Shown piece by piece: positions 12,414 to 31,545 of a stretch of 38,850 nt of DNA; the first letter of the stretch is position 1; every line of letters starts with the position of its first letter. Source of the stretch: Deltaproteobacteria bacterium (GTDB lineage Bacteria > Desulfobacterota > Dissulfuribacteria > Dissulfuribacterales > QOAL01); contig WGBG01000092.1 in assembly GCA_015494395.1 (NCBI GenBank), positions 1 through 38,850 of the forward strand, read 5' to 3'. The position numbers and the translations under genes were made by a program. The notes below the pieces were generated by a model. The model saw nothing but the letters and a program-made list of their open reading frames with translations, was not told where the DNA came from and searched no databases.

Positions 12414-12523
12414 GTATCTGCTCACAGGGTACCGCATCTGCTGCGTTGCTAGTGACCCGAAGTACAGGGAGTACGCCTTTCGCCCCCGCCGCCTTGCATA
12501 TGCAGCACCCTGCGAACAGATAC
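12414..12523. repeat. REP-like palindromic repeat in the nifE leader
   Basis: About 110 bp whose ends are imperfect inverted repeats: GTATCTGCTCACAGGGT on the plus strand at the left and ACCCTGCGAACAGATAC at the right pair at 15 of 17 positions. The inner parts pair again (GCATCTGC with GCATATGC), and a small GTAC-AGGGA-GTAC hairpin sits in the middle. It resembles the GC-rich intergenic palindromes scattered in many proteobacteria; that resemblance is from memory. It lies between the nifE promoter and start codon, so it would fold in the mRNA leader. Confidence 0.6.
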
Positions 12524-12804: not shown

Positions 12805-13176
12805 ACATTAAGGAGAAAACCCTTTGCATACAGACTCCAATTCATGCGGCGTCTTTGTGACAGGGCAGGAGTAAAGAGATTTGGCTTTCATGCCATTCGC
12901 CATCTTACGGCCTCTCAACTCTTCAAAAAAGGCTACAGTGTGGGGATAAAACAGGCTATCCTTCGGCACAAAAGCGCCTCAACTACGGAGCTATATCTGA
13001 AGACATTGGGGCTGGAAAAAATCAGGGAAGCCCTTGAGGACATGACAGGAGAAACGGGGCGACATATTAATTTGAGGCTCATTCACCTTGAAGAAAGTGA
13101 TGACCAGAACAGGGCTTCTGAAAAAAGCCGTCACCCCAAAGTTATGTGGGCAAACAAAAAAGGAAACCAAGCCTAA
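12805..13176 (+). pseudogene. Tyrosine integrase fragment, C-terminal part only
   Basis: This is the C-terminal catalytic part of a phage/island tyrosine recombinase. The reading frame is open from 12805, after a TAA at 12802, and family-like sequence begins before the only ATG (12844): FAYRLQFMRRLCDRAGVKRF. The HxxR box is GFHAIRHLTASQL, the second His lies in LRHKSASTTELY, and the tyrosine nucleophile is in ELYLKTLGLE. The whole N-terminal arm-binding and core domain, with the first catalytic arginine, is absent; the upstream DNA is now the nifE control region. The last codons lie inside the tRNA terminator. It is probably a relic of the element that delivered or flanked the nif island. Confidence 0.75.
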
Positions 13177-13202: not shown

Positions 13203-13280
13203 TGGCGTCCCCGACCGGATTTGAACCGGTGTTGCCGGCGTGAAAGGCCGGTGTCCTGGACCTGACTAGACGACGGGGAC
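13203..13280 (-). tRNA. tRNA-Glu (TTC)
   Basis: On the minus strand the acceptor arms GTCCCCG and CGGGGAC pair, followed by discriminator G and an encoded CCA. The anticodon stem CCGGC/GCCGG holds the loop CTTTCAC, giving anticodon TTC. The T arm is ACCGG-TTCAAAT-CCGGT. It is second in a two-tRNA operon. Confidence 0.96.
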
Positions 13281-13303
13281 GTTGATTTTGTAATGTATAA
13301 ATT

Positions 13304-13379
13304 TGGTGGGCCGTACTGGGCTCGAACCAGTGACTCTCTGCTTAAAAGGCAGATACTCTACCAACTGAGTTAACGGCCC
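13304..13379 (-). tRNA. tRNA-Lys (TTT)
   Basis: On the minus strand the acceptor arms GGGCCGT and ACGGCCC pair, followed by discriminator A and an encoded CCA. The anticodon stem TCTGC/GCAGA holds the loop CTTTTAA, giving anticodon TTT. The T loop is TTCGAGC. It is first in the operon, 23 nt upstream of tRNA-Glu. Confidence 0.97.
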
Positions 13380-13465: not shown

Positions 13466-13673
13466 CCTAAATTGAGCGTTTCAAAATCTGGAAAATTATT
13501 TTTTCAATGAAATTAAAAGGAGTTATGTCGATTATAGCTTTCCTGTTTTGAAACCCTTCGGGATTGCCGTATTTACTGCACCTCCTTTGTCAGAGGAATC
13601 CCCATATAGCCGACTATTATGGGAATTCCTCTTTCGCGGATCTGCAGCAAATCCGACAATCGCTCAATCTAGG
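13466..13673. repeat. Dispersed ~208-bp structured element, copy 1
   Basis: First of three related intergenic copies (others at 20943 and 31338). The ends CCTAAATTGAGCG and CGCTCAATCTAGG are inverted repeats. Inside lie a stem from GTTTCAAAAT near the left end and its partner TTTTGAAAC, a long AGAGGAAT.../...ATTCCTCT hairpin, and a CGGAT/ATCCG hairpin. By hand count it differs from copy 3 at about 19 of 208 aligned positions. It has no convincing open frame. It fills most of the 13439-13709 gap between the tRNA promoter and the DUF362 gene. Confidence 0.85.
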
Positions 13674-13709: not shown

Positions 13710-14648
13710 TTAGAAAAACCTCATGTAAAGGCTCTTTAGACGGCCCTTTGCAAGGCGTACAGGGTGGAATGTAAATTGCTGAAGCCTTTCAGGCAGCCTG
13801 AATTTTTCAAGGTTAAAATCTTGCGGCCTTTCAAGGGGAAAACTGATGTCTTCAAGGCTTGTCCCCCTAATCTGTCGTCTCAGGGCTTCCCGGTGTACCG
13901 GCAGAAGGTCTGCCGGTATGTTTAACATGTTGTAAAATACTGTGTCCACAGCAAAAGGTGAGACAGAGGCAGCGATAACGCCAAGGTGGCAGGGGCGGCC
14001 TCCTGATGGACCTGTTCTGTCCATTGCAGTAATGGCATCAACAATACTGAAAGATGGGGGCAGTACCGCAGGGATCTCTGTTAAAATGGTTTCAAAGAGA
14101 GTTCCTACATCTCCATACTTGCAGTGTGCAAATGCCTTTCTGAACCCTGTAACGCAGCCAAAGAAATTTTTTACAGCAGCGGTAATGCCGGCTTGCGCAT
14201 GCGCCTTAAACCGCGGGCAGTTTATTATAAGATCAGCATCAAGTGCCTTTTGCGATATTCCAACTGAAATTCCTGATGGCAGTTTTATATTTTTCGGTTT
14301 GTCAAGCTCTGAAAACTCCACATCAAGTCCTTTCAGAGCGTCAAGGATGCCACTTTTCATTGCAACCCGCCTGGCTGAGCCAAATGCCGGAGAATCCCCT
14401 ACCTTTACCTTTGCCCCCATTTCAACAAGGAATGAGCACACGGCACCAATGAAGTCCGGTTCTGATGCAGCAAGTGGGTCCCTTGGGGTAACAAGATTTG
14501 GTTTGACCAGCACGTGAACATTTTTAAGGGAATCCGGCCCTGCTGCTTTGAAGAGTGTTTTAATAATCTGGTCGGTAAAGAGGGCCTTATAAGAATTGCA
14601 GCGGGAAAGGGCTACCGGTATAGGTGAAAGAGAGGTATCTGATTCCAT
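13710..14648 (-). CDS. DUF362 domain protein
   Basis: A member of the DUF362 family (COG2006), whose role is not established; some members carry ferredoxin domains, but this one has no cysteine cluster of that kind. The 312-residue product has the family segments VLVKPNLVTP near residue 47, GDSPAFGSARRVA, INCPRFKAHAQAGITAAVKN and IVDAITAMDRTGPSGG. I prefer the ATG at 14648 (MESDTSL) because AGGTG lies six bases upstream; GTG or ATG codons at 14657 and 14654 are possible. It follows the helicase gene by a few bases, so it is the last gene of the 20919-13710 cluster. Confidence 0.85.
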   Translation of the reverse strand: MESDTSLSPIPVALSRCNSYKALFTDQIIKTLFKAAGPDSLKNVHVLVKPNLVTPRDPLAASEPDFIGAVCSFLVEMGAKVKVGDSPAFGSARRVAMKSGILDALKGLDVEFSELDKPKNIKLPSGISVGISQKALDADLIINCPRFKAHAQAGITAAVKNFFGCVTGFRKAFAHCKYGDVGTLFETILTEIPAVLPPSFSIVDAITAMDRTGPSGGRPCHLGVIAASVSPFAVDTVFYNMLNIPADLLPVHREALRRQIRGTSLEDISFPLERPQDFNLEKFRLPERLQQFTFHPVRLAKGRLKSLYMRFF

Positions 14649-14662
14649 TTGCATCACCTGTC

Positions 14663-17600
14663 TTATGAAAACAGCACCTCAAGGTCTTCAGATGACAGGT
14701 TTTTCAGCATGTCTCCACTTCCACTCAAAATTGAGGTTACCAGTTCCTGCTTCTGCTTCTGCAGCGCCAGGACCTTTTCCTCTACTGTGTCAACCGTAAT
14801 AAATCGGTATGTAAAGACACGTTTGTCCTGGCCGATTCTGTGGGTGCGGTCAACTGCCTGAAGCTCAACTGCAGGATTCCACCAGGGATCAACAATAAAC
14901 ACATAATCTGCTGCGGTAAGATTAAGCCCTACGCCACCTGCCTTAAGGCTTATCAAAAACAGTTTGACATCATCATTCTGCTGAAAATTAGCAACCCTTT
15001 GCTCACGTTTTTTCTGTGGCACGCTGCCATCAAGGTATTCATAGGTTATGCCCGTGGTGTCAAGATATTCGGTTATAAGGCGAAGCATCCTTGTAAATTG
15101 AGAGAAGATCAGGGCCTTGTGTCCGCCTGCTACTGCCTCTTCCACAAGCATCATAAGCTCGGAAAATTTCCCCGAAGGTGCATCGGGATGCCCTACCAGT
15201 GCCGGGTGGTTTGCTGCCTGCCTGAGCCGCAGGAGCGCCTCAAGCACCTTGATCTTTGATTTGCCCATTCCCTTTTTCTGGACAGAGGTGAGTATGGCAG
15301 AGCGGTAGTGATCCCGCAGCCTTGTGTATATCTCGATCTGTTCAGGAGGCATGGCACAAATCACTGTCTGCTCCATCTTCTCAGGAAGCTCAGAGGCAAC
15401 CAGCTCCTTGGTGCGCCTCAGGATAAACGGCTTTACTATGGTTTTAAGGGTCTCAAGAGCCTTTTCATCATTACGCTCAATGGGTTTTAAAAAATTTCTT
15501 TCAAAAACCGCCCTGTTACCAAGTATACCCGGGTTAAGAAACTCCATCTGGGACCACAGCTCTCCCACGTTGTTTTCAAGCGGGGTTCCTGTAAGGCACA
15601 GCTTGTGTGAGGCCTTAAGAAGTCTTGCTGCCTTTGATGTGAGGGACATGGGATTCTTTATCGCCTGACTCTCATCAAGAATTACATACTGGAATTCAAT
15701 CTTTGAAAGTTTTTCTATGTCCCTGCGCAGGAGGCCATAGGTTGTAATAACCAGATGATATTCATCAAGCTTTTCAAGCAGTGTGTCACGCTCTGTTCCG
15801 CCATAAACCATCACCTTCATGTCAGGCACAAAGCGGCCTGCCTCTGCCTTCCAGTTGAATACAAGGGAGGTGGGAACTACAATCAGAGACGGCCTGACAT
15901 CCGGGGATTCCTGGTGGATATCGTCTTTGGTATCTTTATGTTTTTCAGAGGTGGGTACAAGACGGGAGAGCCAGGCAAGCACCTGCACTGTCTTTCCAAG
16001 GCCCATGTCATCGGCAAGAATGCCTCCGAATCTGAATTTTTCAAGGAAATTGAACCATCCCAGCGCTTCCCTCTGATAACCTCTGAGAGTACCCTTGAAC
16101 TGTAGCGGAACAGGCGGGGTTTCTATGCCGCTGAAGTTTTTAAGCGCGTGGCGAAGTTTTTCAAAATCCCTGTCTATGGATACGTCCTGAGCCTCGGCAA
16201 GCAGTGCGTCAACCAGAAGTGCCCGGCTTGTTGGAAACCTGAGCCCGGCCTTCCCTGCTCCCTTTTTGTTCCCACTTCCGTGCTGCAGGGCCATCTCAAA
16301 CAAAGGGGCGTTATCCTCCATCCACTCACAGGGCAGAATACCAACGCTGCCATCTTTAAGGGTGACAGTGCGGTTTCCCTTTATAAAATCCCTTATTGCC
16401 CTGGGAAGGGGAATAATGTCATCTCCAAAAGAGATATGACCTTCAAGGTCAAACCAATCCACCCCGCTCCTGATTTTAAACCCTGCGCCAGTTCCAGTAT
16501 GAATTTTTTTCCGGTTAATTGCCTCAAGACGAAACCCCTTATCACCAAGTGCGGTCAATGCAGTTGAGATCTGCTTAACATCCCGAACAAACCTGTTATT
16601 TTCCTGTCTGAAACCGTATTTTTCCAAAAGTTTCACAAAAGATTGTTCCTTCTGCACATCCCGTGGGATTCGTACCCACCGGTCAGGATCAAGGATGCTT
16701 GTTCTCCTGTCAAGCCAGTCAATCTCAAGGCCTTCATAATCTACCACAAGGGTGGCAAACGCCTGTTCCTTTTCAAACTCAACGATAAATACAGGTTTTG
16801 GCTCAACATTATCAAGGAGTTCAGGGGAAAGATTGTCAGGAAGTTCAATTTCAGGGGCATGACTCAAGGTATCGGACTGCTGCACAAACTCCCGCACCTC
16901 ACTGGCCGGGACCTCAAGGAATTTCAGAGGATATAGCTGGTTAATAAAGCTGAAAGGGACCCCTTCTGCCTGATAAAGCCTTCCATCTGCAATAAACATA
17001 ACGGGCTCGGTATTAAAAATGCAGTCCATGTTATCACCTGCTATGTCAATGCATTTATCACCTTCCTCTTGTTCCTGGCTCAAAGGCTCCCTGCCCTCAA
17101 TGCAGAATACAGGATGGATTTTTAAAACTTCTGTTTTTTTCTTATTGGTCTCAGTTGATTTGGTGGACTTTTCCGGCTGGTTATCTTTTTCAAACTCATC
17201 CTCTGACGCCTTCAGCCTGAATGTTGCCTTAAAGGGCACGCCCCGGGCAAGTGGATCGGCAACAACGCCCTTTCTCCAATGTGTAACAATACAGCGGCCT
17301 GAGTCAGCAAGGAGGGGAAGGAGAAGCTCAAGATCTTCCTTCTGGTTAAGCTGAATCTCTTCATAGTTAATGCCATTTGTGCCATAATAGCTGTACCTGG
17401 CATTGCCTCTGCCAATATCTCCTGCAAGGGCAAGAAGGATGCGGTCAGAACGGGGCAAGGATGCCCGCACGGTAGATGCGTAGGAGATCTTTCGCTTTCT
17501 TCCAAGGGTCCCGTCTTTTTTCACATATTTTTCAACAACGGAGAGAATAACACCGTGCTCTTCCACCATGAGTTTGTACACAGGAATAAAGTTGCCTGAG

Positions 17601-18079
17601 CCTGAATCCTTTTCATTCTCCTTATCTCTACCTAAAAGTTCAGGAACCAGGAGATTTCGCCAGTTCCTGTCAGGCCCGCCCTGATCTGCCGATGTATCCC
17701 TGGCTGCACTGCCCTCCCCTGCCTCTGCACGTTTAATGCTCAGAATTCGGTCAGCCTCAAGAATTGCTGCCCAGATATGCTTGCATGGAAAGCCCTGCCT
17801 GAAAAATGGACAGTCGCAATATGTGCTTATCCTGTCACGGGATGCCTCTTTATCTGTTACAAAGAGCTCAACATTATATGAAATGGTGCCCTCAACAGTA
17901 GCTGCAATCTTATCTTCAGTGGCACTGTTTATATGCACCCTGCGTTCCCTGGCATAGCGCTCTCCACGCTCCCTGATTACAGGCAGAAATGACCCCCTTA
18001 GCCTGGATGCCCAGGTGGGCAAATCATTTTTGGCACTTGCGGATTCTGAATTGTTATGGTCGTTGAGTGTTATCATCAT
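14663..18079 (-). CDS. SNF2-family helicase with N-terminal SWIM zinc finger
   Basis: A large (1138-residue) DEAD/H-type ATPase of the bacterial SNF2 group, which remodels protein-DNA complexes; the cellular target is unknown. The SWIM zinc finger is CxCx8CxH at C88, C90, C99 and H101 (TYCDCPFFRQGFPCKHIW). A long middle region of the bacterial SNF2-associated type follows. The ATPase has motif I GGILADDMGLGKT near residue 690, motif II DESQ near 800 and motif III LTGTPLENN. The helicase C lobe ends with DPWWNPAVELQAVDRTHRIG near 1076. The start codon overlaps the stop of xerD (ATGA), and the DUF362 gene follows within about 15 nt. Similar proteins occur as stand-alone housekeeping genes and in some defence islands; nothing here decides between these. 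Confidence 0.93.
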   Translation of the reverse strand: MMITLNDHNNSESASAKNDLPTWASRLRGSFLPVIRERGERYARERRVHINSATEDKIAATVEGTISYNVELFVTDKEASRDRISTYCDCPFFRQGFPCKHIWAAILEADRILSIKRAEAGEGSAARDTSADQGGPDRNWRNLLVPELLGRDKENEKDSGSGNFIPVYKLMVEEHGVILSVVEKYVKKDGTLGRKRKISYASTVRASLPRSDRILLALAGDIGRGNARYSYYGTNGINYEEIQLNQKEDLELLLPLLADSGRCIVTHWRKGVVADPLARGVPFKATFRLKASEDEFEKDNQPEKSTKSTETNKKKTEVLKIHPVFCIEGREPLSQEQEEGDKCIDIAGDNMDCIFNTEPVMFIADGRLYQAEGVPFSFINQLYPLKFLEVPASEVREFVQQSDTLSHAPEIELPDNLSPELLDNVEPKPVFIVEFEKEQAFATLVVDYEGLEIDWLDRRTSILDPDRWVRIPRDVQKEQSFVKLLEKYGFRQENNRFVRDVKQISTALTALGDKGFRLEAINRKKIHTGTGAGFKIRSGVDWFDLEGHISFGDDIIPLPRAIRDFIKGNRTVTLKDGSVGILPCEWMEDNAPLFEMALQHGSGNKKGAGKAGLRFPTSRALLVDALLAEAQDVSIDRDFEKLRHALKNFSGIETPPVPLQFKGTLRGYQREALGWFNFLEKFRFGGILADDMGLGKTVQVLAWLSRLVPTSEKHKDTKDDIHQESPDVRPSLIVVPTSLVFNWKAEAGRFVPDMKVMVYGGTERDTLLEKLDEYHLVITTYGLLRRDIEKLSKIEFQYVILDESQAIKNPMSLTSKAARLLKASHKLCLTGTPLENNVGELWSQMEFLNPGILGNRAVFERNFLKPIERNDEKALETLKTIVKPFILRRTKELVASELPEKMEQTVICAMPPEQIEIYTRLRDHYRSAILTSVQKKGMGKSKIKVLEALLRLRQAANHPALVGHPDAPSGKFSELMMLVEEAVAGGHKALIFSQFTRMLRLITEYLDTTGITYEYLDGSVPQKKREQRVANFQQNDDVKLFLISLKAGGVGLNLTAADYVFIVDPWWNPAVELQAVDRTHRIGQDKRVFTYRFITVDTVEEKVLALQKQKQELVTSILSGSGDMLKNLSSEDLEVLFS

Positions 18080-18996
18080 GCCCTTGGGTGGAACTGTTTG
18101 TGTACTGCACGAAGGCGGCCTATATCCAGGTGTGTATAAATCTGTGTGGTTGTGATGTTGCTGTGGCCAAGCAGAACCTGTACAGTCCGCAGGTCTGCAC
18201 CGCCTTCAAGAAGATGAGTTGCAAAGGAGTGTCTGAGCGCGTGTGGATAAACTCCCTTCTCAATGCCTGCTGCAACCGCATATTGCCTTAATATCTGCCA
18301 GAAACGCTGCCTGCTCATGTGCCTGCCACCCCTTGCCGGGAACAGGTAATGGCTGAGCTTCTTCCCGCATAACTTGCCGTGTCCCTTTTGAAGATATGTC
18401 TGAATCCAGTCCATTGCCACAGCGCCTGCAGGCACTACCCGCTCCCTGTTACCCTTTCCTCTGATTCTAAGGTATCCCAATTCCATATCAATGGAATCAA
18501 GTGTGAGGGTCACGGCCTCTGATGCCCTTAGTCCGCAGGCATAGGTAATTTCAAGCAGGGTCCTGTCTCTTAATCCGCGCGGCTTTGAAGTATCAGGCTG
18601 CTCAAGGATGCTCTCTATCTGCTTAACAGATAATACCACAGGAAGGGTACGACCGGAACGTGGGTTGTTTATAAGGGATGTTGGGCTTGATTCAAGCCCG
18701 TACTCTTTTACAAGAAAACGGAAAAAACTCCGGAGTGCTGAAAGCTTCCTGGTGGCAGATGATGGGCTTATGCCGTCTTTTCTGAGCCTGCTTAACCAGT
18801 CAAGTATGTGAACCGGCTTTACCTCTTCCGGCCTTTCTATGCCCCTTGATGTCATCAGGGCCAGAAAATTCATTATATCCCGGCTATAGCCGTCAAGTGT
18901 GTGCAAAGAGGCTCCGCGCTCAACTGACATGTGGGCCATGAAGTCATCAAGGAGAAGGTTCCAGTGTTCAGAAGACAGATTTTCTTCTTCTATCAT
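18076..18996 (-). CDS. xerD: Tyrosine recombinase XerD
   Basis: XerC/XerD resolve chromosome dimers at dif. The 306-residue length and two-domain layout fit: a SAM-like N-domain at about residues 10-105 and a catalytic domain after that. All catalytic residues are visible: R157 (GLRASE), K181 (GKGNRER), H252 and R255 (PHALRHSFATHLL), H278 (LLGHSNI) and Y287 (QIYTHL). The C-terminal LRAVHKQFHPRA is closer to XerD than XerC. It overlaps the upstream 144-residue gene and the downstream helicase gene by 4 nt each, so all three are translationally coupled. An island integrase is less likely given the short length and standard end. Confidence 0.9.
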   Translation of the reverse strand: MIEEENLSSEHWNLLLDDFMAHMSVERGASLHTLDGYSRDIMNFLALMTSRGIERPEEVKPVHILDWLSRLRKDGISPSSATRKLSALRSFFRFLVKEYGLESSPTSLINNPRSGRTLPVVLSVKQIESILEQPDTSKPRGLRDRTLLEITYACGLRASEAVTLTLDSIDMELGYLRIRGKGNRERVVPAGAVAMDWIQTYLQKGHGKLCGKKLSHYLFPARGGRHMSRQRFWQILRQYAVAAGIEKGVYPHALRHSFATHLLEGGADLRTVQVLLGHSNITTTQIYTHLDIGRLRAVHKQFHPRA

Positions 18997-19427
18997 AAAC
19001 GGGAAAGTGCCTCTCCTGCCGCTTCCTGAACGTCAGGGTCCGACTCTGTCATCTTCATGATTTTAAGTCGGCTTTCAAGTCCCCTTAGCTCTGACGATGA
19101 AGGGGGCTGCTCTGAAACAAGCTCAACAAGCCGGTCAATTACATCACATACAAGGTCTGGCCGGTCTTTAAGCTCAAGGAGCATAATCAATGTGCTCCAC
19201 TTGTCCGGAAGCCCATATTTTTTTACATACTCCGCGGCATTTCGGCTGAAGCTCTTTTTCCCAAAGGAGTTTTCAAGCTTTCTGAGATCATTTTCATGCT
19301 CAGGTTTGCCCTTGGGCCCCATAAAGAGTTTTTCTGCCTCTTTAAGGTAATGCCGTTTCAAGGATGAATCTTCAAGTGCCTTTTCTAGTGTGTTCCTGGA
19401 TTTAAAATTGTTTTTCTGTGACGCCAT
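18993..19427 (-). CDS. Hypothetical protein, 144 residues, upstream of xerD
   Basis: I do not recognise this family. The product is charged and predicted all-helical by eye, with no signal peptide or membrane segment. It has a lysine-rich N-terminus, a stretch KLFMGPKGKPEHENDLRKLE near residue 34, and a region VCDVIDRLVELVSEQPPSSS near 93. The C-terminal part (SRLKIMKMTESDPDVQEAAG) looks like a HEAT-type or short helical repeat. The 4-nt overlap with xerD and the fit of its end to the downstream start argue that it is real. The upstream universal stress gene ends 9 nt before its start. Confidence 0.75.
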   Translation of the reverse strand: MASQKNNFKSRNTLEKALEDSSLKRHYLKEAEKLFMGPKGKPEHENDLRKLENSFGKKSFSRNAAEYVKKYGLPDKWSTLIMLLELKDRPDLVCDVIDRLVELVSEQPPSSSELRGLESRLKIMKMTESDPDVQEAAGEALSRL

Positions 19428-19436
19428 TAAACAACC

Positions 19437-19895
19437 CTACTCTACCACCCATACCGTGCAGTCCTTTGCGTAGTGCACAACCTTGTTTGAAACGCTGCCA
19501 AACAGAAACTCCTCCTGCTTTGTAACCCCGCGCCTTCCAAGTGCCACAGTGCCAAAGCCTCCTTCCTGTTGTACTTTCATTATCTCTGAAGCTATGCTTG
19601 TGCCATGGGATTTGACAATCCTTGTGTTGATTGCACTCCTGTCAAGCCCGCAGGCAACCAGCTCCTTAACAGCCTGCTCAAGGGCATCCTTGCCCTTCTG
19701 CTCAAATTTCACGCATGCCTCCTCCCACTGGGAACTGTCCGGGAAGTGATCTCTTGAAGGATAGCGGACAATATTCAGAAGCGTTACAGCAAATCCTTGT
19801 GATGTGCCCACAATGGTGCCTACATACTTCACAGCCCGCATTGCATTTTCAGAATCATCAATTGCAACAAGAATATTTTTTACATTATATCCCAT
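19437..19895 (-). CDS. Universal stress protein (UspA family, ATP-binding type)
   Basis: A single-domain, 152-residue Usp, a family linked to survival under stress and energy limitation. D13 in ILVAIDDSENAM and the motif G120-x2-G123-x9-G133-S134 (GRRGVTKQEEFLFGS) mark it as an ATP-binding member. The C-terminus ends in a beta strand TVWVVE as usual. The ribosome site AGGAGGTAATC before the ATG at 19895 is the strongest in this cluster. It lies between the kinase-like gene and the 144-residue gene. Confidence 0.93.
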   Translation of the reverse strand: MGYNVKNILVAIDDSENAMRAVKYVGTIVGTSQGFAVTLLNIVRYPSRDHFPDSSQWEEACVKFEQKGKDALEQAVKELVACGLDRSAINTRIVKSHGTSIASEIMKVQQEGGFGTVALGRRGVTKQEEFLFGSVSNKVVHYAKDCTVWVVE

Positions 19896-19953
19896 GATTA
19901 CCTCCTGCTATTTAACCAAATCATCATTTTCTTGCCCTGCGAACCATTTTATC

Positions 19954-20919
19954 TCAGCCTTTATGTATCAAATCAATACATGGCTCAAGATCATTCAGGA
20001 ACTCTTCCACTGTCTCATAAAAGACCTCTGCTGATGTGGAAAAATGCATAAGAATAGAGTTAAGTTCAGTGGGAATCCACGGAAGCAGCTTTTTGAGATT
20101 GACAATCCGGTTCCGGTAAAGCAGAGAGAAATCACCGGGCTTGATTGAGTCTATATTCTCTGCAGGAATGCCCCGTTCCTCCAGGGTATGCATGGTGTAG
20201 AGGCCCTTTCCACTAAGGAAAAGCAGCAGACTACCAAGTCCAAAAAGATCAAGCCCGAAGGGATTTTCCTCAAAATCATAAGTATAGTCAAAATCAATCC
20301 ATCTGTATAGGCCGCTCTTGTGTTCTATCCAGAGATGATCTCTCCTTATGTCACCGTGAATCTCGGAGTGGTTGTGTAAAAACTGGATTGCCCTGCAGGA
20401 CGCAATAAATTTGTCAAGGATTTCAGGGAAAAGCTCAAAAAAATATGTCCTGTGGTCTGCTTCAATGGCAGATACCCAGTTGTCGAGGCGTTTACCCTTT
20501 ACAACCTCAAGGATCCTTACCGGGTTGCCCTTTATATCCCTGACCGTTACACCCTGCATGAACCGGCGGTCACCCCTGACAAGGTCCAGTATCCGCGATT
20601 CCTTTTCGGGGCTGCGGTAGCATTCAATTTTCAACTCGCCAAGGGGTAATGTAAAGCGTTCATGAAAGACAAGTTTCAGGATCTTGCGTTCTCCTGTTTC
20701 AAGCACCATGCACCGCTTAACCCAGTACTTGGGATCTTCTATTCCAAAGCTCCGTTCAGCCTCGTCCCGGATGACAAGATAATGGAGACCGTCAAGCTTT
20801 ACGACATCCCCTGACTCAATCTTCATGAACTCGGTAGTATCAGTAAAGATGTCTCCATACTCGCCTATGGACAGGCCCGGGCGGTATTTTTCAACAAGCT
20901 CCTTTACCTCCTTTGACAT
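19954..20919 (-). CDS. Protein-kinase-like protein with altered catalytic loop
   Basis: A 321-residue cytoplasmic protein with a Ser/Thr-kinase-type fold. The ATP-anchoring lysine is probably K82 (RKILKLVF). The catalytic loop is HGDIRRDHLWI at 188-198, with D190 as catalytic base, but the magnesium-binding Asn of HxDxxxxN is replaced by H195. The DFG position reads D209-F-D. A region of about 70 residues precedes the kinase core. The substitution leaves open whether it phosphorylates proteins, phosphorylates small molecules or is inactive. The start at 20919 follows GAGG with 8-nt spacing. It is the first gene of the cluster and is preceded by repeat copy 2. Confidence 0.8.
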   Translation of the reverse strand: MSKEVKELVEKYRPGLSIGEYGDIFTDTTEFMKIESGDVVKLDGLHYLVIRDEAERSFGIEDPKYWVKRCMVLETGERKILKLVFHERFTLPLGELKIECYRSPEKESRILDLVRGDRRFMQGVTVRDIKGNPVRILEVVKGKRLDNWVSAIEADHRTYFFELFPEILDKFIASCRAIQFLHNHSEIHGDIRRDHLWIEHKSGLYRWIDFDYTYDFEENPFGLDLFGLGSLLLFLSGKGLYTMHTLEERGIPAENIDSIKPGDFSLLYRNRIVNLKKLLPWIPTELNSILMHFSTSAEVFYETVEEFLNDLEPCIDLIHKG

Positions 20920-20942
20920 GTGTAAGACCTCACTTTCCCTGA

Positions 20943-21149
20943 CCTAAGTTGAGCGTTTCAAAATGCGGAAAATTATTTTCCCATGAAATTAAAAGGAGTT
21001 ATATTGATTATAGCTTTCCAATTTTGAAACCCTTCGGAATTGCCAGCTTCACTGCATCTCCTTTGTCATCGGCCTTCCCACATAGCCTACTATAGTGGGA
21101 AACCCTCTTTCGCGGATATGCAGCAAATCTGGCAATCACACAACTTAGG
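20943..21149. repeat. Dispersed ~208-bp structured element, copy 2
   Basis: This is the most diverged of the three copies. Its ends are CCTAAGTTG and CAACTTAGG, which remain exactly complementary although both arms changed relative to copy 1. The internal hairpin also changed on both sides: TTCCCAC pairs with GTGGGAA around CATAGCCTACTATA. Such paired changes argue for selection on structure. It fills most of the gap between the kinase-like gene and the promoter at 21242. Confidence 0.85.
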
Positions 21150-21729: not shown

Positions 21730-21985
21730 GTAAATTCCGGTATCAAAATGATCGTTCCATTGAACCTTTACCGGGCCAGTTCAATAGAGCCTTTACTTTA
21801 TTGACAAGAAGTGCTGTACAGTTATACTTTCAGCCTGAATTCCGGGGGTGAGGTAAAGGCTTGTATCTCTCACGCCAGCATCGTTTTCTATTGTCACGTG
21901 CATTCGTATCACATTTTTCAACCGTATTGCCTGGAGCTGGACTAAGCATCCAGACAACAAATCCATTATCCTATAACAAATGTAT

Positions 21986-22202
21986 CTATTCAGTGTGGTA
22001 AATGGTCTTGTTTTGGAGTGACTCTGAAGAATTTCGTAGTTTTTCTTGGCGAAGCGCAGCCAAAAAATCGCGTCTGTCTGAGCGAGGCACGAGCGAGTTT
22101 CGCGATTTTGGCGTAGCGAGCCTTAGAAAAACAAGAAATTATTCACCGGAACGGAAAAACAAGGCCATTTACCAACCTTATTAAAGTTAATGCGCTGAAT
22201 AG
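21986..22202. repeat. Nested inverted-repeat element upstream of purB
   Basis: About 217 bp able to fold into one long hairpin. The outer ends are CTATTCAG and CTGAATAG. The next pair is GGTAAATGGTCTTGTTTT (21997-22014) with its near-exact complement at 22156-22173 (17 of 18 positions). The inner arms around GTTTTTCT and AAAATCGCG pair again. The centre is a GAGCGA-rich loop near 22085-22100. It is unrelated to the 208-bp family. The remaining gap sequence 21730-21985 shows no gene. Confidence 0.8.
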
Positions 22203-22239
22203 TTACTAACAAATTTCCTTAAATATAGCGGAGTTCCAA

Positions 22240-31337: not shown

Positions 31338-31545
31338 CCTAAATTGAGCGTTTCAAAATGCGGAAAATCATTTTTCTCATGAAATTAAAAGGCGTTATAT
31401 TGATTATAGCTTTCCAATTTTGAAACCCTTCGGGATTGCCGGATTCACTGCATCTCCTTTGTCAGAGGAATTCCCATATAGCCGACTATTATGAAAATTC
31501 CTCTTTCGCGGATCTGCAGCAAATCCGACTATCGCTCAATCCAGG
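31338..31545. repeat. Dispersed ~208-bp structured element, copy 3
   Basis: It is closest to copy 1 (about 19 differences over 208 positions by hand count). The ends are CCTAAATTGAGCG and CGCTCAATCCAGG. The inner stem GTTTCAAAAT (left, from 31350) pairs with ATTTTGAAAC ending at 31426. The AGAGGAATTC hairpin lies near 31466-31505 and the CGGAT/ATCCG hairpin near 31509-31527. It occupies the first half of the copA-to-CBS gap. Confidence 0.85.

Follow-up and report, generated by a model that had tools for sequence, protein, structure and literature searches.

The gene cluster at positions 13710–20919 of the DNA analysed here (38,850 nt in total, referred to as the window) is probably a housekeeping transcription unit, as judged from gene content and its conservation in relatives. 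The draft genome (G000) probably belongs to the order Dissulfuribacterales. XerD would act together with XerC, which is encoded elsewhere, at a canonical dif site under the control of FtsK and would resolve chromosome dimers in the ordinary way. The genes for the SWIM-SNF2 helicase and DUF362 would be inherited neighbours outside the recombination machine, and a gene pair encoding a kinase-like protein and a Usp would have been joined by rearrangement. A small helical protein encoded directly upstream of xerD is the sole neighbour with a functional-looking tie.

Organization of the xerD cluster

All six genes are closely packed on the minus strand. They encode a kinase-like protein (20919–19954, 321 aa), a member of the universal stress protein family, Usp (19895–19437, 152 aa; PF00582, E = 2.4e-17), an uncharacterised helical, HEAT-like protein (19427–18993, 144 aa), the tyrosine recombinase XerD (18996–18076, 306 aa; TIGR02225), a SWIM-zinc-finger helicase of the SNF2 family (18079–14663, 1138 aa; four Pfam domains), and a DUF362 protein (14657–13710, 315 aa; PF04015, E = 6.2e-48). 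The open reading frames of the window confirm the outer limits and the overlaps given in the initial annotation. The gene for the helical protein overlaps xerD by 4 nt (18993–18996), and xerD overlaps the helicase gene by 4 nt (18076–18079), both overlaps being of the ATGA type. The remaining gaps are 58 nt (kinase-like/Usp), 9 nt (Usp/helical protein), and 5 nt (helicase/DUF362).

The 4-nt overlaps and the recurrence of the xerD–helicase adjacency in three families render co-expression of the cluster genes, as proposed earlier, plausible. A pattern scan returned 18 promoter-like sites (10.8 expected in shuffles) and 15 terminator-like sites (9.2 expected), and did not tell one transcript from several. 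With regard to its origin, the cluster appears to be composed of two inherited units that were joined, kinase-like–Usp and helical protein–XerD–SNF2–DUF362.

XerCD-dif components and the SNF2 helicase

In profile searches, XerD scored 342.9 bits against the equivalog model TIGR02225 (cut-off 329.6), and the catalytic residues R, K, HxxR, H, and Y are readable in its translation. A second recombinase of the XerC type is encoded elsewhere in the genome (G000:C41; TIGR02224, 342.5 bits, cut-off 335.15), as is an FtsK gamma domain (G000:C184; PF09397, 91.3 bits, cut-off 30.6). A dif site, a 28-mer with two mismatches to the 22-nt search pattern, is located at G000:C158:4086; the pattern search of the genome returned one further site with three mismatches, and the reversed-pattern control returned none. 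Within the window, no dif was found, ruling out a site beside the cluster. One site with 0–2 mismatches was identified in each of the nine genomes searched, and in the single-contig genome G023 dif (position 1407317) and xerD (602477) lie about 0.8 Mb apart. Since other parts of the genome supply XerC, the gamma domain of FtsK, and a canonical dif, standard dimer resolution would need no SNF2 helper.

The equivalog scores of XerD and XerC and the FtsK gamma domain are as expected for XerCD-dif dimer resolution, and the dif 28-mer is close to those tabulated for delta-proteobacteria in PMC2731167. Nothing tested points to another mechanism. What differs from the known system is the position of xerD in an operon-like run together with a lineage-specific helical protein.

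The helicase resembles SWIM-domain bacterial SNF2 helicases in that all four of its Pfam domains exceed the cut-offs (SWIM, 1.3e-6; SNF2_assoc, 1.2e-12; SNF2-rel_dom, 1.5e-72; Helicase_C, 3.3e-25). It differs in falling short of the thresholds that NCBIfam sets for its named equivalogs, pilus_reg_Snf2 (NF053675; 412.1 versus 1100 bits) and SCO1167 (404 versus 1200 bits). Orthologues, defined as matches reaching residue 1138 at an identity of at least 48%, are present in 31 genomes of the order, the genomes compared being mostly draft assemblies. In 15 of the 31, xerD and the helicase gene are directly adjacent, with a 4-nt overlap in five cases; they are apart in 10, separated by one or more genes in three, and end at contig edges in the other three. 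Among the other 15 genomes of the order, 10 gave no match in a helicase search at 1e-60 and five (G025, G027, G033, G034, and G036) partial SNF2 matches alone (40–50%). Adjacency of the two genes is seen in three families (f1, f2, and f6), so that the neighbourhood, contrary to the refuting condition named in the initial annotation, is kept beyond close strains but, with 10 genomes having the two genes apart, by no means throughout.

The initial annotation had raised the possibility that the helicase assists XerD at dif or during stress, by remodelling complexes of DNA and protein. While direct adjacency in 15 genomes and the overlap in five of these would be in line with such a function, both genes are kept by the 10 genomes in which they are apart, G022 and G024 carry XerD and dif and have no helicase match at 1e-60, and FtsK with its gamma domain is at hand. 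These distributions lend no support to a remodeller that works for XerD at dif, and we regard such a role as very unlikely. The recurrence of the pair and the 4-nt overlaps are nevertheless some sign of selection for co-expression, which counts against the explanation as a housekeeping unit with mere neighbours. The DUF362 gene adjoins the helicase gene in six genomes. In the same region, the unlike genes PurL, DUF7826, AI-2E, radical SAM, and phosphoesterase stay adjacent in 26–28 genomes per pair, all adjacent-pair counts giving what the fetched stretches show and having no common denominator between pairs; conserved gene order by itself is therefore only weak evidence that genes of this region share a function. 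No title or opening abstract in the open-licence literature was found to report a XerD–SNF2 or XerD–HEAT partnership, and the available parts of PMC7159879 and PMC13109099 have no bearing on either.

The combination of a recombinase and a helicase may also be read as an anti-phage defence or mobile island. The SNF2 domain resembles the defence helicases DpdE and ZorD in PADLOC (best score 486 bits), the surroundings include tRNA genes and a piece of an integrase, and repeats flank the cluster. We consider this reading very unlikely. XerD scores as a housekeeping equivalog, and 96 of 99 genomes encode a recombinase of the XerD or XerC type (E ≤ 1e-40); the other five proteins had no PADLOC match at 1e-3; the NCBIfam scores for Zorya ZorD (NF041790; 215.3 versus 1500 bits) and DISARM DrmD are far below the cut-offs; and the repeats belong to an element that the genus carries in many copies, copy B of which is lacking in G001. 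Taken together, the XerD score, the PADLOC result, and the low ZorD and DrmD scores disfavour a defence island.

The helical protein encoded upstream of xerD

The most conserved link of the cluster, passed over by the initial annotation, connects xerD to the gene of the 144-aa helical protein. Wherever this gene was detected within the order, in 40 genomes, it is located directly upstream of xerD. The script recovered 38 of these, and G017 and G021 were added from match coordinates, as the ORF picker, which took the longest frames and may thus misjudge single gaps in relatives by a start codon, had hidden the gene; in G034, where xerD is split over two contigs, adjacency rests on a contig-end piece. 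In a wider survey, covering the best 80 of 111 places and sharing some genomes with the searches within the order, the gene is adjacent to xerD at 37 of the 80 loci, and a radical SAM–phosphoesterase–helical protein–XerD block occurs at 27, Thermodesulfobacteria among them. At eight of the same 80 loci, from another set of genomes, a member of the family directly precedes polA, the gene of DNA polymerase I. This position hints at a DNA-linked role for the family.

The protein is a short representative of an uncharacterised family of helical, HEAT-like proteins. Its structure model is helical and HEAT/ARM-like (mean pLDDT 87.3), and in fold comparison parts of it matched a large number of unrelated HEAT/ARM chains with Z scores of 8–10 (up to 9.9), which amounts to a general likeness to helical repeats and no more. 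In contrast to established HEAT/ARM-repeat proteins, it scores below the Pfam cut-off for HEAT_2 (PF13646; E = 0.012, 16.4 versus 27.7 bits), and Foldseek returned no match at E ≤ 0.001. A profile search of solved structures gave two weak matches of no use, the better one to a JUBO2 chain at E = 0.088. In PHROGs, XerD and the SNF2 protein matched integrase and helicase families, respectively, and the helical protein matched none. Most other members carry an N-terminal SWREID-type motif, which is located in a low-confidence N-terminal tail in the model of a full-length member. In the alignment, the motif is absent from the window's protein and from the four other sequences of the window's family, where it has been lost.

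As judged from its constant position, the protein is a better candidate for a functional partner of XerD than the helicase and would most likely serve as an adaptor in a DNA transaction, although the link to xerD may reflect no more than slow change of gene order in a region where unlike pairs are kept. A more specific possibility is an accessory role for XerD, and for DNA polymerase I in the other set of genomes, in which a conserved tail or helical surface would dock the enzyme and place or regulate it on DNA. The invariant position upstream of xerD in the order, the adjacencies to xerD and polA, and the helical model, with the SWREID motif in a low-confidence tail in a full-length member, would fit this proposal. 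Yet XerD is missing from the fetched stretch at 40 of the 79 loci at which the script recognised the family, and single checked loci have genes for Lon and an Era-like GTPase, for AMP-binding protein and enoyl-CoA hydratase, for phosphofructokinase, or for transporters nearby. In addition, five members including that of the window lack the motif, and HEAT-like folds are common and silent on the partner. We hold the proposal to be rather unlikely. In its extension, SWREID-family proteins of Thermodesulfobacteriota would be undescribed accessory factors that serve enzymes of DNA processing, being coupled to XerD in Dissulfuribacterales and Thermodesulfobacteria and to DNA polymerase I in the other genomes; this, too, is rather unlikely. 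Setting aside the tempting link between an SNF2 remodeller and dimer resolution, it is this well-conserved gene beside xerD that is worth testing. If its product did act on XerD, it would join FtsK as a factor of dimer resolution, within an order to which, according to PMC10553843, belong Seep-SRB2, partners of methane-oxidising archaea.

The kinase-like–Usp pair and the flanking repeat

The assignment of the kinase-like protein is a weak call, as its match to Pkinase (PF00069) is below the gathering cut-off (E = 0.06; 13.2 versus 31.7 bits). It contains the catalytic-loop-like motifs HGDIRRDH and DFDY, and its relatives outside the genus reach up to about 70% identity. The Usp gene is located downstream of the kinase-like gene at nine of 10 loci examined, that of the window included, and the two form a conserved pair of their own in relatives. 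In G002, which belongs to the same genus, a different gene follows the pair. Neither protein had a match in 175 loci including the xerD neighbourhoods of relatives, for which the helical protein as positive control gave 131 rows. The pair was seen beside xerD only in the present genome; G001, in which contig breaks interrupt both xerD and the kinase-like gene, may or may not share the arrangement. We infer that kinase-like–Usp was brought upstream by rearrangement in this lineage, and the Usp/helical protein junction of G000 may be an assembly error.

At gathering scores, Rfam identified two tRNAs and nothing else in the window. The ends of the flanking repeat (CCTAGATTGAGCG) are reminiscent of IS1380/ISEcp1, a tie that is unproven as the transposase model PF13701 gave nothing over the cut-off in G000, G001, and G002, with one weak piece in G002. 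The repeat is 208 nt long, MITE-like, and of high copy number, and was found only in three genomes of this genus. Copy B (13466–13673, minus strand) follows just after the DUF362 gene and has no counterpart at the corresponding position of G001, whereas copy A (20942–21149, minus strand), just upstream of the kinase-like gene, is found at the same place in G001.

Layout of the cluster

The window constitutes an entire contig (C92, 38,850 bases) of a draft genome, G000, of 3.21 Mb in 206 contigs that is 92.3% complete. In agreement with the initial annotation, six genes occupy 20919 to 13710; ORF reading places them on the minus strand, where they encode a kinase-like protein (20919-19954), Usp (19895-19437), a 144-aa helical HEAT-like protein (19427-18993), XerD (18996-18076), a SWIM-SNF2 helicase (18079-14663), and DUF362 (14657-13710). 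The 4-nt overlaps of xerD with the genes on either side were likewise found, both of the ATGA type, and the other junctions have gaps of 58, 9, and 5 nt. Profile searches upheld the identities of Usp, XerD, the helicase, and DUF362; the kinase-like gene remained under the Pkinase cut-off, and no family scored over the cut-off for the HEAT-like protein. Overall, this is an operon-like run of an ordinary kind whose XerD is canonical, and co-expression of its genes is plausible.

Conservation of the links around xerD

We searched 99 genomes (G000 and 98 relatives), 46 of which (G000-G045) are of the window's own order, by kinship probably Dissulfuribacterales, using all cluster proteins except Usp as queries; the corresponding stretches were then fetched and their genes mapped. 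Seep-SRB2 is assigned to Dissulfuribacterales in PMC10553843. The gene of the HEAT-like protein was present in 40 of the 46 genomes of the order, and in all 40 it immediately preceded xerD in the same orientation, a count that includes two genomes hidden by the ORF picker (G017 and G021; script tally 38) and one, G034, that is represented by an xerD piece at a contig end. A helicase orthologue, defined as a match that extends to residue 1138 with an identity of at least 48%, occurred in 31/46 genomes. It directly followed xerD in 15 of these 31; one or more genes intervened in three (G008, G029, and G039), the arrangement ran into contig ends in three (G040, G041, and G045), and in the remaining ten the two genes were separate, with a different gene after xerD. 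Among the 15 other genomes of the order, ten had no helicase row at 1e-60 and five had partial SNF2 matches only. Helicase and DUF362 genes were neighbors in 6 genomes. For comparison, adjacency of functionally unlike genes further upstream was found in 28 genomes for PurL-DUF7826, DUF7826-AI-2E, and phosphoesterase-HEAT-like protein, and in 26 for AI-2E-radical SAM and radical SAM-phosphoesterase, counts which were taken from the fetched stretches and have no common denominator. All adjacency counts refer to genomes of shared ancestry and not to independent events. The persistence of these upstream pairs in 26-28 genomes indicates that gene order here changes slowly, and the XerD-helicase link is among the weaker links of the region.

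In G039, a small PIN-domain gene on the opposite strand (locus L158, 11315-11725) lies between xerD and the helicase, and stretches resembling it lie in the same interval at loci L202, L203, and L205, in some SeepSRB2-like genomes. The helicase gene of G001, a genome of the window's genus, reads as two pieces (G001:C343, locus L116, 6693-10107), either because the gene is damaged or because of a fault in the assembly.

The initial annotation had suggested that the SNF2 remodeller might help XerD at dif or during stress. G000 encodes XerC (locus L002) and an FtsK gamma domain and has a canonical dif 28-mer on contig C158. The dif pattern was built from two delta-proteobacterial sequences in an excerpt of PMC2731167, allowing up to 3 mismatches. 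Each of the nine genomes searched contained one site with 0-2 mismatches; six weaker sites had 3 mismatches, and a reversed-pattern control gave seven matches, confined to G022 and G023. Both G022 and G024 have XerD and dif, and the helicase gave no match there at 1e-60. The dimer-resolution parts are those of the standard system, which does not require a remodeller. A remodeller serving XerD is not supported, and a helper role of the helicase is improbable rather than impossible.

The small protein encoded upstream of xerD

The worthwhile lead of the locus is the small HEAT-like protein. In a wider survey of genome contigs, the best 80 of 111 loci placed its family in Dissulfuribacterales-like genomes, Syntrophaceae, Desulfobacca, and others, and also in Thermodesulfobacteria (Thermodesulfatator, Thermosulfurimonas, Thermodesulfobacterium, and Caldimicrobium). 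Among these 80, the gene was directly upstream of xerD in 37, and the radical SAM-phosphoesterase-HEAT-like protein-XerD block was complete in 27; one ORF separated the gene from xerD at L239 and L270. XerD was missing from the fetched stretch in 40 of the 79 loci of this set recognized by script. Eight of the 80 (L220, L221, L222, L223, L226, L231, L232, and L240) carried the gene directly before that of DNA polymerase I, at gaps of 3 to 162 nt; the polymerase was called by Pfam at one locus, to which the other seven are 62-93% identical. Single loci checked by Pfam had Lon and an Era-like GTPase nearby, and others AMP-binding and enoyl-CoA hydratase, phosphofructokinase, or transporter genes. 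That the gene accompanies xerD in one group and the Pol I gene in another suggests that the protein may have a role in DNA transactions.

In an alignment of 27 family sequences, G56, F60, and P74 were invariant and 21 had an N-terminal motif of the SWREID type, which was absent from the window's protein, four other aligned members of its family within the order, and that of locus L155. The AlphaFold2 model of the window's protein has eight helices (mean pLDDT 87.3), and structural comparison yielded a general HEAT/ARM likeness only. In the predicted model of a full-length member, the SWREID stretch is a tail of low confidence that includes one short helix.

A probable rearrangement, and repeats

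The cluster joins two units. The kinase-like gene of relatives is not near xerD (in G023, a single-contig genome, the distance is 780 kb), and in nine of the ten loci examined, the window among them, Usp is encoded downstream of it. A tblastn search at 1e-4 with either protein found no match in 175 fetched loci totalling 2.0 Mb, among them the relatives' xerD neighborhoods; the HEAT-like protein, as positive control, gave 131 rows in the same loci. In G002, also of the window's genus, the gene after the pair is convergent and encodes a 747-aa, apparently LptD-like product. The old upstream block has also been broken up in the genus, as the radical SAM gene shares a contig with a XerC-like gene in G000, G001, and G002, and PurL, DUF7826, and phosphoesterase are on another contig in G001.

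A 208-nt MITE-like repeat with inverted ends (consensus CCTAGATTGAGCG/CGCTCAATCTAGG) has three copies in the window, two at the cluster ends (20942-21149, copy A, and 13466-13673, copy B) and one at 31338-31545. A 5-bp target duplication flanks 18 of 25 distinct full copies, compared to 1.0 on average and at most 5 among 1000 shuffles, and copy B folds far better than its own shuffles (z -10.3). The repeat gave 41 rows in G000, 51 in G001, and 14 in G002, some of them partial or partial on the opposite strand; the G000 and G001 figures are lower bounds on such rows, as 40 of 275 (G000) and 40 of 200 (G001) first-look candidates were scored. There were no rows in G003, G004, and G009, which belong to other genera. 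G001 also has copy A, which lies immediately before the kinase-like gene, but it lacks copy B, after DUF362, at the matching place, and therefore the two are not the ends of one mobile unit.

Beyond DUF362, a C-terminal tyrosine integrase fragment of 110 aa (12844-13176, plus strand) beside tRNA-Glu and tRNA-Lys (13203-13379) is probably left over from an integrated element. Another interspersed repeat, about 228 nt long (21981-22208), is absent at the matching place in G001; it also matches G000 contigs C22 and C41 and the end of G001:C103. A third repeated stretch, of about 105 nt (12415-12523), recurs at 78-81% identity twice on G000:C41 and once on G001:C70.
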